Assembly: GCF_000756655.1 (NCBI RefSeq)
Contig: NZ_ARXU01000003.1
Location: 124,001 to 188,000 of the forward strand
DNA from: Alcanivorax jadensis T9
GTDB taxonomy: Bacteria > Pseudomonadota > Gammaproteobacteria > Pseudomonadales > Alcanivoracaceae
Length of the DNA: 64,000 nt
Direction: 5' to 3'
The notes under the pieces were generated by a model. It saw only the letters and a list, made by a program, of their open reading frames with translations. It did no database searches and was not told the origin of the DNA. A program made the translations under genes and the position numbers. Positions 12,689 through 16,894 of this stretch are shown here, one piece after another; the stretch's first letter is position 1, and each line of letters begins with the position of its first letter.

Positions 12689-13390
12689 ATGACCAGCACC
12701 AAGGAACGCATCCTCAACACCAGCCTTACCCTCTTCAACCGCGAAGGGGAACGCAATGTGACCACCAATCACATCGCCGAGGCGCTGGGCATCAGCCCGG
12801 GGAATCTCTACTACCACTTCCGTAACAAGGGCACCATCGTGGCCGCCCTGTTCGAGCGCTACAGCCAGAACTTGCTGGCCCTGCTGGAAGCCCCCCAGGG
12901 GCCGCTGACCTGGACCATCAAGACCCATTATTTCGAGGGGTTGCTGGCGTCCATGTGGCAGTACCGGTTTTTCCACCGCGACCTGACCCACTTTCTGCAT
13001 GCCGACCAGGCGCTGGCGGCGCGCTACCAGGCCTTTGTGGAGGTGGTGCTGGAACGGGGACTGGTGATTTACGGCGAACTGCGCAGCAGCGGCATTATCG
13101 ACGTGGATGACGAGCAGTTACAGGGGCTGATGGTGAACACCTGGGTGCTGATGTCCTCCTGGGCGGCACTGGTGCATGGCCTGCGCCCGGATGCGGCCGC
13201 CGATGAAGCCCTGGATGAATCCCTGATGCGCCACGGCATCTACCAGATCATCTGCCTGGAAGAACCCTTCCTGCGCGGCGAAGCCCGCGAACACCTGGAA
13301 GAAATGAAGGCCCGCTACCGGGCCGTGGATACGACCTCGGCGTTGCTGCTCGGCCATGTGCCCGGGCTGGACAGAACCGGCAGCGAATAG
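12689..13390 (+). CDS. TetR/AcrR family regulator
   Basis: This 233-residue protein has an N-terminal helix-turn-helix (TTNHIAEALGISPGNLYYHF, residues 25-44). The long helical C-terminal domain resembles those that bind fatty or aromatic ligands. It is divergent from the aldehyde dehydrogenase/Tat/GMC operon, with a perfect palindrome between, so it most likely represses that operon and itself until an alcohol, aldehyde or acyl ligand binds. The ligand is unknown. Confidence 0.9.
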   Translation: MTSTKERILNTSLTLFNREGERNVTTNHIAEALGISPGNLYYHFRNKGTIVAALFERYSQNLLALLEAPQGPLTWTIKTHYFEGLLASMWQYRFFHRDLTHFLHADQALAARYQAFVEVVLERGLVIYGELRSSGIIDVDDEQLQGLMVNTWVLMSSWAALVHGLRPDAAADEALDESLMRHGIYQIICLEEPFLRGEAREHLEEMKARYRAVDTTSALLLGHVPGLDRTGSE

Positions 13391-13842
13391 CTGCCCTTTC
13401 CCCTCAACCGCTGTAAAAAATGGTTTACCACAGAGGGCACAGAGAACACTGAGGAGAATCCTCTTTTCCCAATGTGCTCTGTGCCCTCTTGGTGAAGACG
13501 CAGGGGCATTGCCCTTTTCCGGATACACCCCCACCACTCACCTTCAAACATAGGCGGTTGATAACCGATGGTTGTTTGCCTCTATGGGGCGGCCTGTACG
13601 CTCCTTGTGCATGGGCTGGATCCTATTCTCAATCACTCTGTCTTTATGATCAGGGTTATTGGGTCAGGGAAAAGAAGAGGTCAACATATTGAATCATGCG
13701 TAAACCGACCAGTTTGTAACTGACTGACTTTTCTGCTTTTATCTTTCGATATGCAAATTTGTATCTGGTGATATGAAGCCGGCGTGTTCATTGGATATTC
13801 GAGCCGGCTTCCTAATACCTGTTATGAGTCTTAAGGAATCTC
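13391..13842. other. Gene-free left boundary of the AT-rich island
   Basis: No convincing gene is seen in this 452-bp gap. It holds the CACAGAG inverted repeat (13427-13494), then a drop in GC from about 13550. A perfect 9-bp hairpin follows (GAAGCCGGC at 13775-13783 with 13803-13811, no T run), then GTTATGAG at 13821, which could be a cassette junction. Confidence 0.6.
13427..13494. repeat. CACAGAGGGCACAGAG-family inverted repeat
   Basis: ACCACAGAGGGCACAGAG (13427-13444) faces a near-complement at 13477-13494. The same arms occur at 24877-24947. A small inner GAGGA...TCCTC hairpin lies in the loop. Confidence 0.8.
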
Positions 13843-14550
13843 GTGAGAATTACACAATCGCTGAAAAAACAAGTTTTCGAGGAAGCAGGATGGAAGTGTG
13901 AATATTGTGGTGTTGCTCTCAATGAGAGTAATGCCTCAATAGACCATAAAATGCCGCGAAGTAAAGGCGGAACTGATGAACGAGAAAATTTAGCTGCGGC
14001 ATGTCGTCAGTGCAATACGCAAAAAGCCGACAAAATAATTGAGGCAATAAGCGCTCCTATTGCAAAACAGGCGGCAGAAGCTTGGATTCATGCGTATATA
14101 AACTCACCTAAAGTGACAAGTGCTGTATCTTTTATAGTAGGTGTGCTCGGAATAGTGCTTGCTCTCTACTTTAATGAACAAGCAACCCTAAAGCGTGAGG
14201 CGAAGCTTGCAGAAGACTTGAGTTTCACCAACCAAATTAATCAGCTTAATGAAACAGAGGAGAATGTGAAAACACTTCTGTCTTTCATTCAGCAGCAGCG
14301 AAACCAGATGGTTGATAACCAAAACTCTCTTGAAGAGTTAAAAGAAGAAAAAAGCAAGCTACAGCCATTGGTTAGCGCCGACAAAGAGATTGTAGAAACT
14401 TTATTTTCAGCACAAGAGGCGAGAGCAAAAGCGTCAGCAAAGACAGAGAGATGGATCGGTTTCGGTTTGGGGATAGTTGCATCCATAGTTGCATCGATAT
14501 TTATCATGATTATTCAGTATTTTGTTAAAGCTCGGCGCCGTGACTCATAA
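13843..14550 (+). CDS. Membrane-anchored HNH endonuclease-like protein
   Basis: This 235-residue protein joins an N-terminal HNH nuclease domain to a membrane-coiled-coil module. The HNH part has a zinc knuckle (Cys19, Cys22, Cys54, Cys57), the catalytic-type Asp34-His35 and Asn49. Then follow a transmembrane segment (about 94-110), a long charged coiled coil (about 115-200) and a second transmembrane segment (about 204-227) with a basic tail. The nuclease domain and tail should be on the same side, probably cytoplasmic. The start is GTG with AAGGA 5 bases upstream. Base composition is much AT-richer than neighbours, and an attC-like site begins at its stop codon. Role unknown; defence is possible. 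Confidence 0.8.
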   Translation: MRITQSLKKQVFEEAGWKCEYCGVALNESNASIDHKMPRSKGGTDERENLAAACRQCNTQKADKIIEAISAPIAKQAAEAWIHAYINSPKVTSAVSFIVGVLGIVLALYFNEQATLKREAKLAEDLSFTNQINQLNETEENVKTLLSFIQQQRNQMVDNQNSLEELKEEKSKLQPLVSADKEIVETLFSAQEARAKASAKTERWIGFGLGIVASIVASIFIMIIQYFVKARRRDS

Positions 14551-14614
14551 CAAGCGCAGTCACTGGGACACAATTTACGCTGCGCTCCAATTGCGCCCGT
14601 GCTGCGGGCGTTAA
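14546..14614 (+). mobile_element. Integron attC-like recombination site
   Basis: The site begins at the HNH stop codon with ATAACAAGCGCAG and ends CTGCGGGCGTTA. The outer 12-base arms TAACAAGCGCAG and TAACGCCCGCAG (complement) match at 9 positions. Inner CAATT/AATTG and CACTGGG/CCCGTG pairings flank a TACGCTGCGCTCC loop. Length (about 69 bases), the terminal GCGTTA and the overlap with a stop codon are as in chromosomal integron cassettes. No integrase gene is in the window. Confidence 0.7.
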
Positions 14615-14627
14615 CTTTAGGAAGGCT

Positions 14628-14966
14628 ATGGAAGATTACTTCAATTATATTTCGGAGTGGGTTGGCTTTGGTGTATTAACGCCATTTCTATTTGTCTTCG
14701 CGATTACCGGACCATTCGCAATTGTCGTTCTAGAAGAGGTAGGTGGAGATGCGGCGGAGAGGATCAAGGTGATTGTGGGTCTTTGTGCATTCTTCGCATC
14801 ATTCTTTTTGTTTATTGGCACCGCTCAATACCTCTTGGAGCCAATGAGATTGCCCGGCAAAGGGATGCTAGAGTCTTTATTGGGGATTACCGTTTGGTAC
14901 TTATCAATCAAATTTATTGCAATAATAATAGACCTTAGAGAAAGGGATACGGGCAGTAAAAGTTAA
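14628..14966 (+). CDS. Small membrane protein, cassette-like
   Basis: This 112-residue protein has three hydrophobic segments (about 12-35, 50-67 and 80-102) and is probably an inner-membrane protein. It begins 14 bases after the attC-like site, with AGGAAGG as ribosome site, and is followed at its stop by a weaker attC-like sequence. One gene per cassette is therefore plausible. It is AT-rich against the chromosome. No family is recognised. Confidence 0.65.
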   Translation: MEDYFNYISEWVGFGVLTPFLFVFAITGPFAIVVLEEVGGDAAERIKVIVGLCAFFASFFLFIGTAQYLLEPMRLPGKGMLESLLGITVWYLSIKFIAIIIDLRERDTGSKS

Positions 14967-15013
14967 CAAGAAGCAGCGGGCCTACCTTCGGCGGCTGTGC
15001 TAGGCGCTAGGGC
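14962..15013 (+). mobile_element. Weak attC-like sequence
   Basis: GTTAACAAGAAGCAGCGGG at the stop codon of the previous gene resembles the 5' side of an attC, and GGCGCTAGGGC could be a degenerate 3' end. Internal pairing (AGCAGC.GGCC with GGC.GCTGTGCT) is imperfect. It could be a decayed site. Confidence 0.35.
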
Positions 15014-15052
15014 GGTCGTGCTAAAAAATAATTAAAAAAGGGGGTGGTGGAC

Positions 15053-15376
15053 ATGTTTGAAAGTAAGTCCCAGCAAAGTGATATCAAATTATCTATGAAG
15101 CTATTTTCAATAGTTAGATGGATACGTCATTCTTTGGCGGTTCTCATCTTATTAGCTTATTTTGGAGGGCAGGAATGGGTTCTAGATATTATGCTAATTG
15201 CTGTGGTTCTACTTCTTATTTTCCCAATGGGTTTTTTTGACGTTTTTATTCAAAAGCTAGTAGAGCATAACACTTCCCAGTTAGAGGACCGTGTCAGGCT
15301 AAACGCTGAAGAGGCGAACAGTACTTTCGTTGACGTGTATTCAAAAATAAAAGTCGGAGCTGGTGATGACGATTGA
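15053..15376 (+). CDS. Small membrane protein of unknown function
   Basis: This 107-residue protein has two hydrophobic segments (about 25-40 and 45-66) followed by a soluble C-terminal helix with acidic end. The ATG at 15053 is preferred over a GTG nine bases earlier because the G-rich ribosome site is better spaced. It overlaps the next gene by 11 bases, which suggests translational coupling. AT-rich; no family recognised. Confidence 0.6.
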   Translation: MFESKSQQSDIKLSMKLFSIVRWIRHSLAVLILLAYFGGQEWVLDIMLIAVVLLLIFPMGFFDVFIQKLVEHNTSQLEDRVRLNAEEANSTFVDVYSKIKVGAGDDD

Positions 15377-15773
15377 GTTTCGTGGAGAGGAATACTACGA
15401 CGATAGGTTGTTTGTCTTTTACATATGCAAAGTAACGGCAGAAATTGTCGATGGTGTTAAGGAGATAATCCTGCATCATGATGAAGCCCCTGATGATCAC
15501 GTGTGGGCGCTTGTCCTTTATAAGAATACGGGGCGAATGATGGCTGCCAAAGTGAACTATTTTAGAATCAGGGAAGATGCTGAAGAGTACTACAGGGATA
15601 TAGCTCCCCAAGTTCCGCGTATCTCTTTAAATGGCGAATCACCGCTGCATCCACCATCCTTCAAAGAGTATTCTGATTGGATGGCAAGGGAGGGCCTTTC
15701 TGAATACGACAAAAAAGCGTTCTATTCAAGCAGTGGGAGCAATCAAAAAGAAGTAATATATGAGCAATTATGA
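15366..15773 (+). CDS. Unknown soluble protein coupled to the upstream membrane gene
   Basis: This 135-residue acidic protein has no membrane segment or signal. The ATG at 15366 has GGAG 6 bases upstream inside the preceding gene, and the two reading frames overlap by 11 bases. Such a pair could be an effector and partner, but nothing in the sequence names a function. Last gene of the AT-rich island; the following 130 bases hold a large stem-loop. Confidence 0.6.
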   Translation: MTIEFRGEEYYDDRLFVFYICKVTAEIVDGVKEIILHHDEAPDDHVWALVLYKNTGRMMAAKVNYFRIREDAEEYYRDIAPQVPRISLNGESPLHPPSFKEYSDWMAREGLSEYDKKAFYSSSGSNQKEVIYEQL

Positions 15774-15782
15774 GGCGGGCAC

Positions 15783-15877
15783 CCCCAACAAAACGTGGCA
15801 GTTCGAGGGTACGGGGTCAAACCTCACATTTCACTGGCTTCCATTGCGATCTGGCATGACCCCATATTGTTATTGGG
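15783..15877. repeat. Large imperfect stem-loop closing the island
   Basis: GGGGTCA (15813-15819) pairs exactly with TGACCCC (15857-15863), and outer CCCAACAA/TTGTTATTGGG segments extend the stem. The GGGGTCA...ACCT...ACATTT arrangement resembles sequences that flank REP-associated Y1 transposases; an attC remnant is the alternative. No transposase is present. Confidence 0.45.
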
Positions 15878-15907
15878 TTAGCGCAGCCCTGCCCCCTCTC
15901 GCACCTC

Positions 15908-16894
15908 TCAACGAAACCCAAACCCCTGCACAAACGCCATCAACCGCTGCTCCAGCCAGAAGCGCTGGGGGCCGTGGTTGATAAAGCCCACGTGGCCGCC
16001 GTACTCACTCACTTCCAGGGTCACCGCCGGGCCCAGCTCTTCCTGGCGCGGCAGGGTATCCGGGGTCATGAAGGGGTCGTCACGGTTTTGCAACATCAGT
16101 GTGGGGGTGCGGATCTGCAGGAGTTTGGGCCCGGCAGAGCATTGGGCGTAGTAATGGTAGGCTCCCCGAAAACCATATAGTGGCGCGATGATCTGGTCGT
16201 CGTAACGCCAGAAGGAACGGATACCGTTCATGTTCAGCCGGTGCAGGCGTTTGGCCTCCGGCGGGTTTACCTTGTCCAGATGGCGCTTCTTGTCACCGAG
16301 CTGGCCGAGCAGGGTCTTCAGAAGATGTTGGCGGTACAGCTTTGACAGCCCCCGATCCAGCCGATTGGCGCACAGGTCCAGCCGCAAGGGCGCGCACACC
16401 GACGCCACTGCGGTCAGTTTGCCGTTGTCCCGGTGAGCCAGCCAGTTCAGCAGCCGGCTACCACCCAGGGACACGCCGATGGCGATGCGATTGCCGGTGG
16501 GGTCCTGGGCAAAGACATGCTCGATCACCGCATCCACATCGTCGGTTTCCCCGGCGTGGTAGCACAGGGCGGTGTCATTGGGCTGCTTGGCACCGCGACT
16601 GTTGATCGCCACCGAGCGCACCCCGGCATCGGCCAGCGCCTTCTGAATGCCACGCATATAGTGGGAATCGCTGCAGCCAGAGAGGCCGTGGAGCAGGATC
16701 ACGGTGAGCTGACCGGGGTGGGGTTGCGGCCCGGCCCAGTCCAGCAACAGCTGGTCACCATCCGCCAGCGGCAGCCATTCGCTGTGCCGCTCCACCTCCG
16801 GCAACGCCCGGCCCAGTGGCCCCCACAGGGTTTGCAGGTGCGGGTTGCGTAGCCACACAGGGGGCTGGAACGGGGAACGAACGATTTCGCCCAT
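15908..16894 (-). CDS. YheT-family alpha/beta hydrolase
   Basis: This 328-residue hydrolase has the family start (RNPHLQTLWG), the oxyanion region LLHGLSG, a serine elbow GVSLGGSRLL and a late His in YGGHVGFI. The Asp of QNRDDPFMTPD is the likely acid. The family hydrolyses esters of medium-chain acids; the physiological substrate is unknown. It is divergent from rsmE with 88 bp between the starts. Confidence 0.88.
   Translation of the reverse strand: MGEIVRSPFQPPVWLRNPHLQTLWGPLGRALPEVERHSEWLPLADGDQLLLDWAGPQPHPGQLTVILLHGLSGCSDSHYMRGIQKALADAGVRSVAINSRGAKQPNDTALCYHAGETDDVDAVIEHVFAQDPTGNRIAIGVSLGGSRLLNWLAHRDNGKLTAVASVCAPLRLDLCANRLDRGLSKLYRQHLLKTLLGQLGDKKRHLDKVNPPEAKRLHRLNMNGIRSFWRYDDQIIAPLYGFRGAYHYYAQCSAGPKLLQIRTPTLMLQNRDDPFMTPDTLPRQEELGPAVTLEVSEYGGHVGFINHGPQRFWLEQRLMAFVQGFGFR

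Follow-up and report, generated by a model that had tools for sequence, protein, structure and literature searches.

Organization of the block

We analyzed a 64-kb stretch of the genome of Alcanivorax jadensis T9 (G000:C3:124001–188000; hereafter the window, whose numbering is used below unless a genome or locus is named), which contains an AT-rich block carrying an integron attachment site (attI) followed by gene cassettes and cassette attachment sites (attC). The GC content is 0.427–0.455 in four 1-kb intervals within 13501–16000 and 0.53–0.67 in the other intervals of the first 40 kb. The comparison set comprised 17 genomes of the genus Alcanivorax (G000–G016, with A. jadensis T9 as G000).

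The block consists of attI, cassette 1, cassette 2, and a final stretch without a recognizable attC. Cassette 1 (13822–14610, forward strand, as are the attI, attC, cassette, and coding features below unless stated) is delimited by the crossover points of attI and attC 1 and contains an HNH endonuclease gene (13843–14550; Pfam PF01844, 48.5 bits, cut-off 21.4) whose product has, by eye, a C-terminal hydrophobic stretch. Cassette 2 (14611–15006), delimited by the crossover points of attC 1 and attC 2, contains an open reading frame (ORF) for a hydrophobic protein of 112 residues (14628–14966). The last cassette, or cassette remnant (15007–15805), contains the overlapping ORFs 15044–15376 and 15363–15773, and a terminal attC was not found there with our attC model R2 (see below). 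Near 15806, homology to the window picks up again in the right flanks of genomes G007 and G009. The three ORFs other than the HNH gene have no Pfam family above its cut-off.

The original prediction, made from the letters of the window, had described the AT-richness, these four ORFs, a possible cassette start at 13821, an attC-like site at the HNH stop codon, a weaker one after the next gene, and the absence of an integrase from the block; all of these hold in the data given here and below. It also remarked that such cassettes often carry defense genes, which the data do not show for this block. In PADLOC, the HNH protein matches PtuB best (30.9 bits, E 5.6e-8), with most among the matches listed spanning the HNH part only, and the other three proteins have no match at E ≤ 0.01.

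The attI site and the intI remnant

The attI site is of subtype A and is located at 13713–13824 (nhmmer 110.6 bits, E 2.2e-32, with the window copy among the training sequences). BLAST identifies it independently: window 13585–13829 aligns with the DNA adjoining an intact integron integrase gene (intI) of the same genome (L011 14966–15211; G000:C3:375965–376210) with 207 of 247 positions identical (84%), the match of the attI part to this intI-linked copy has an E value of 1.7e-68, and the homology stops at GTTATG. The end of homology among attI-A copies places the crossover, G|TTA, at 13821–13822, with GTTATGAG at 13821. Upstream of the crossover, two direct repeats, GATATGAAGCCGGC (13770–13783) and GATATTCGAGCCGGC (13794–13808), are conserved in attI-A copies and are putative integrase boxes. 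A promoter scan of 13390–15950 gave no site at attI; by eye, a candidate cassette promoter (Pc), TTGTAA-N17-TTTTAT, is conserved in type-A copies.

The 84% DNA identity extends into a remnant of intI on the reverse strand (13586–13612), identifiable by translation as a start codon and nine codons (MHKERTGRP), after which homology is lost. The old intI promoter region contains a LexA-box-like CTG-N10-CAG motif (13638–13653), read in the sequence and also present beside the intact intI; the motif is retained in the orphan copy though the intI that LexA would control is gone.

The intact intI is the sole integron integrase over the cut-off in the genome (TIGR02249, 413.6 bits; G000:C3:375024–375956, reverse strand). 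It and the window share a contig, on which 237 kb separate it from the block, and no integrase lies within the block. A complete integron has an intact intI beside its attI; at the block, just nine intI codons remain. The block has two close attC sites and no integrase nearby, and at least two such sites define a cluster of attC sites lacking integron-integrases (CALIN). Two attC matches were found in the array at the intact intI. The second cassette there (L011 15635–16879) encodes a 414-residue protein with a partial match to the PADLOC candidate-defense family PDC-S59 (E 2.1e-10, residues 5–87).

The attC sites

To score attC sites we built a dedicated model, since an Rfam search of 13000–16500 at a permissive threshold returned three chance-level matches and no relevant family, and a loose attC pattern was useless over the genome (40 matches, compared with 127 in a reversed control). 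The seeds were 27 candidate sites from arrays of related genomes, chosen by regular expression, a folding threshold, and eye, and the structure was taken from a pair-frequency matrix: R''/R', five pairs, an extrahelical base, three pairs, an extrahelical base, and three pairs. Model R1 comprised the ends of the 27 seed sites only; in a search of 26 loci it returned 44 sites at E ≤ 0.01, every one on the attI strand of its locus. Model R2, which includes the loops, was trained on these 44 sites. The window sequence was left out of attC model training.

R2 places attC 1 at 14548–14613 (60.0 bits, E 5.6e-14 for the window; 15 of 15 modeled pairs form), with the stop codon of the HNH gene being the TAA within its TAACAAG, and attC 2 at 14964–15009 (24.8 bits, E 2.9e-4; 12 of 15 pairs), 350 bp from attC 1 and with a degenerate R' (GCTA). 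These are the two top matches of the 64-kb window; the third place scores 14.8 bits (E 0.16). With R1, the two sites score 25.1 and 20.9 bits (E 0.0016 and 0.016). The R''-L''-L'-R' fold with extrahelical bases is present in attC 1 and, more weakly, in attC 2. The original prediction had proposed folding the two sites as well as scoring them with an attC model; the scores support both sites, and the free folds speak against them. As a free single strand, attC 1 has a rival fold of nearly the same energy (−15.5 kcal/mol, compared with −14.8 for the attC fold), and the stretch first proposed for it folds with z −2.1, though as a different fold. For attC 2, the free fold is well ahead of the attC fold (−5.4, compared with −2.1 kcal/mol) and is no better than shuffles.

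The 44 training sites have 90.4% paired cells, compared with 64.3% in shuffles, and a covariation score of 0.598, compared with 0.135 (0 of 500 shuffles). This covariation is not independent proof, because the seeds were picked partly by folding energy and the alignment was fitted to the model. Independent tests of the model are the R2 scores in the window and the R2 search of 89 loci fetched by attI, described below.

attI sites across the genus

The original prediction had proposed looking for intI and further attC sites beyond the window, and both are present elsewhere in the genome. Among the R2 matches listed, all 17 genomes are represented, and the places are scattered. A BLAST search with the window's attI returned 27 type-A sites in 11 of the 17 genomes. 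A second attI family, ending in AATACGCTG|TTA, came from comparing DNA upstream of attC places with DNA upstream of intI in ten other genomes. From 24 sites we built R3, a model of sequence only, which found at least 122 sites of types B and C, with every one of the 17 genomes having some. Because no more than 150 candidates per genome were scored in the genome-wide model searches, the counts given here are lower bounds. In the wider family, R3 matches 22 of 46 genomes, namely all 17 of the genus with 2–11 sites each and 5 of the 29 others with 1–3 sites, which suggests that false positives are few and that the multiplicity is particular to the genus. The exact attI-A pattern occurs in six stretches among 84,980 species genomes (from which the window's own genome was perhaps excluded), five in Alcanivorax and one in a Pseudomonadales metagenome-assembled genome.

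The resulting census comprises 137 attI sites from the 17 genomes; judged by coordinates, 13 of these sites are at an intI; 12 of the 122 type-B and type-C sites were omitted as weak or at contig ends. A. jadensis T9 has 11 sites, one of them adjoining the intact intI. Each site was assigned to a subtype (A, B1, B2, or C) by its nearest reference, and in this way one of the 27 type-A sites found by BLAST received the label B1. The paired repeats of attI differ between subtypes and resemble each other within a subtype, a pattern that we infer would fit integrase-binding boxes. As fetched, 127 of the 137 sites end in GTTA; site ends are model match ends, and some of the 10 others may be cut short.

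One intI over the cut-off is present in 13 of the 17 genomes. The intI genes compared, which belong to types A, B1, and B2, are 45–67% identical and occupy one syntenic locus. Many genomes carry attI types other than the type of their own intI, implying either broad IntI specificity or integrases that come and go. An insertion has apparently interrupted the type-A intI of G003 (L080 / L027), whose two parts are ~1.2 kb from each other.

Fragments of intI also accompany orphan attI sites outside A. jadensis. At three orphan sites of G001 they comprise 31 N-terminal residues, 42 N-terminal residues, and a C-terminal piece, respectively. One G001 locus (L096, ~10150–9436) carries attI-A followed by attI-B2 in tandem, ~600 bp apart, with an N-terminal remnant of a B2-type intI between them; by eye, this tandem adjoins a gene resembling dihydroxy-acid dehydratase. 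A second tandem attI is present, by eye, at the tetR site (the place of the block, described below) in G015. The two tandems suggest that attI units can land side by side.

attI and attC sites occur together

We took up to 2.5 kb upstream and up to 1.8 kb downstream of 89 attI sites at loci unused in any attC model, and searched these with R2 (E ≤ 0.01). All 142 attC matches (142/142) are downstream of attI and on its strand, and 74 of the 89 loci carry at least one. Conversely, genome-wide attC matches fall within 7.5 kb downstream of a same-strand attI in 9 of 10 cases in G000, 10 of 12 in G001, and 25 of 25 in G007, with ~1% expected in each. The sole match of the ten in G000 for which no upstream attI was found (G000:C13:715–796) is 715 bp from a contig end. 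Some attI sites have no attC match of their own (3 of 11 in G000, 5 of 9 in G001, and 1 of 12 in G007).

Fixed places and changing cassettes

We grouped attI sites into syntenic groups by reciprocal best upstream flanks and counted pairs where at least 200 bp of downstream DNA was present. (A first grouping, with 15 groups, 126 sites, and 680 pairs of which 2 shared DNA, chained unlike sites and was replaced.) In this way 118 of the 137 sites fall into 17 groups, with one site per genome in all groups except one; one group is the intI locus, and the largest is present in 14 of 17 species. Among 436 cross-species pairs within groups, only 2 share DNA in the first 350 bp past the crossover (one 61-bp match and one pair at the intI locus).

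The block lies between tetR and a hydrolase gene. The original prediction had suggested comparing the presence and absence of this locus in relatives: in 7 of 17 genomes the hydrolase comes no more than ~300 bp after tetR, and an attI is present at the tetR place in 7 of 17, five of type A and two of type C, with unlike cargo (0 of 21 pairs have common DNA in its first 350 bp). One place can hold different attI types in different species. Among L101, L102, and L078 (the tetR site in G003, G007, and G015), two species have a type-C attI, and the third has attI-A preceded by an upstream part that resembles attI-C.

The breakpoint of the intI remnant at the tetR site is the same in G000, G009, and G016, and 0 of 3 pairs of these genomes have common DNA within the first 400 bp of cargo. 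Elsewhere in its genome, G009 carries a type-B1 intI; none was found in G016. The simplest reading of a common breakpoint with unlike first cassettes is that, after the local intI was lost, cassettes changed and G|TTA was retained; a less simple alternative is that homologous recombination at the tetR site exchanged the left half.

A search for whole cassettes common to different platforms, which kept only matches with GTTA at both ends, returned 42 alignments (several of one cassette family), 8 of them within one genome and many across attI types. In particular, a cassette is 99.6% identical over 487 bp between G005 (type B1) and G006 (type B2), another is 98.7% identical over 396 bp between G000 (B2) and G012 (C) and is first in both arrays, and one 345-bp cassette is present in G003 at a type-A and a type-C platform (97.1%). 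The near-identical cassettes look like recent moves between platforms.

Conservation is concentrated on attI in the type-A group, where the last 150 attI columns are 79–96% identical per 25-column interval and the next eight flanking intervals are 43–74% identical (7 of the 8 species, one with a short contig being left out).

Two further elements were seen. In G007, a 1.3-kb element, 95.5–98.3% identical between copies, is present in three arrays (L123, L126, and L128) and may be an insertion sequence targeting attC sites. A ~38-bp repeat (ACCACAGAGGGCACAGAG...), found at window 13424–13493 and at L012 13355–13541, recurs in intergenic DNA and, by eye, also forms an inverted pair adjoining the island.

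Interpretation

The genome sequences show multiple copies of attI, attC sites downstream of them, G|TTA junctions, fixed places, and cassettes that differ at one place and are near-identical at others. We consider it likely that the block is a satellite integron platform, comprising an attI left after its own intI was deleted together with captured cassettes, and that this orphan attI is served in trans by integrases. On balance, we also favor a wider reading, in which the genus has a distributed integron. It would comprise no fewer than 16 orphan attI platforms at fixed places in addition to the intI locus, with individual genomes having as many as about a dozen. Selection would maintain these platforms, and a single integrase, resident or even visiting, would supply them with cassettes in trans whatever their attI subtype, giving captured genes many genomic contexts instead of one array.

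In the proposed mechanism, the orphan attI would be bound through its repeats by an integrase encoded at another locus (in A. jadensis, the single intI at a distance of 237 kb; in other lineages, or at other times, one of another type). Folded single-stranded attC circles would then be inserted at G|TTA, and excised, by that integrase, and many separate loci would thereby work as one distributed integron. We infer both which integrase acts and its action at present. The platforms probably arose as complete intI-attI units with later erosion of intI; orphans with intI pieces of unequal length fit such erosion.

Several observations weigh against the trans-served reading. No intI is present at E ≤ 1e-60 in G001, G011, G013, and G016 (of which G011 and G013 are fragmented), and platforms are present in all four. 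The intI of A. jadensis is of the type-A lineage, and 8 of its 10 orphan attI are of types B or C. Of the 89 attI-fetched loci, 15 have no attC within 1.8 kb downstream, 3 of them cut by a contig end and 3 beside intI. Sequence conservation does not always single out attI: in the tetR group of three, attI is 87–100% identical and the flank mostly 78–89%, and in one group of B1 sites attI and flank are equally conserved. Within the block, attC 2 is degenerate and the array has no terminal attC by R2.

Part of this evidence would suit fossil integrons, in which cassettes were captured while intI was in cis and there is no trans action now. The intI remnants at several orphans (those of the tetR site and of G001), the four genomes without an intI match, and the degenerate attC 2 are all as expected for fossils. 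However, fossils would not readily account for three species with one intI breakpoint and unlike first cassettes, for cassettes 96–99.6% identical at platforms of different species and attI types, or for GTTA being kept at 127 of 137 sites, and we consider this explanation unlikely.

Homologous recombination, rather than integrase, might instead shuffle arrays, or the common intI breakpoint, between strains. The platforms are syntenic, and allelic exchange via conserved flanks or attI is possible; however, common cassettes are mostly at non-orthologous platforms, and their matches end at G|TTA on both sides (in a search that kept only GTTA-ended matches). We regard this as very unlikely.

The original prediction had offered two interpretations of the block, a CALIN-type cluster and the far end of a chromosomal integron array. 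The first stands insofar as attC sites are present without a nearby integrase, and an ordinary CALIN could arise by insertion at non-attI sites (attG), as has been described (PMC12444791, in the part cited); it does not account for a block that opens with its own attI and an intI remnant. The second falls because the block has its own attI and is 237 kb from the intI array on the same contig; it is a platform of its own, with a remnant of intI and a pair of direct repeats. Either origin, an ordinary CALIN or a far array end, is highly improbable given that attI and the intI remnant precede the cassettes. An unrelated AT-rich insertion with chance attC-like motifs would explain the low GC and nothing more, and is refuted by the attC 1 score from a model without the window in its training (E 5.6e-14) and by the BLAST match of attI (E 1.7e-68).

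Comparison with known systems

In descriptions of integrons, one integrase goes with one attI and a single array, and a Treponema paper reports one attI per integron (PMC3607928, in the part cited). For CALINs, the origins described are loss of the integrase, rearrangement, or off-target insertion. If orphan attI platforms that are worked in trans account for some CALINs, captured genes could have ten separate contexts per genome, and both the origin of CALINs and whether they are alive would become testable on a defined set of sites. Among the open papers listed in our searches, taken without their supplements, we found no report of many orphan attI per genome, nor of attC sites in Alcanivorax. 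The cited parts of four papers already cover CALINs, including their mobilization in trans and the conserved positions that they have in Xanthomonas (PMC12444791, PMC9668308, PMC8618304, PMC9229058).

The block resembles a sedentary chromosomal integron in having an attI with direct repeats, a G|TTA crossover, attC arrays in one orientation, and a folded attC with covariation; it differs in that the platform has no adjoining intI and that A. jadensis has about ten platforms instead of one. Like a CALIN, it has at least two attC sites and no integrase nearby, and the cited parts of two papers state that cassettes of CALINs can be mobilized in trans (PMC12444791, PMC9668308); unlike a CALIN, whose definition includes no attI, it is headed by a conserved attI that marks the insertion point.

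Three further published cases are comparable. The Shewanella prophage M16-3 has one CALIN with its own attI, i.e., a resident-type attI heading an integrase-less array (PMC9892861, section 3.3); this is a single case in one prophage, and the cited section does not mention cross-species conserved sites with differing cassettes. In Xanthomonas, CALINs are described at seven conserved loci away from ilvD (PMC12444791), so that both genera have integrase-less arrays at conserved places; the cited part of that paper does not mention attI copies at those loci. Finally, as the cited part of PMC12901181 describes, the Delta-attI gene cassettes of mobile integrons have an attI sequence that recombines away from its usual place, as the block would; in those cassettes the attI part lies within mobile-integron cassettes, whereas in Alcanivorax attI heads separate chromosomal arrays.

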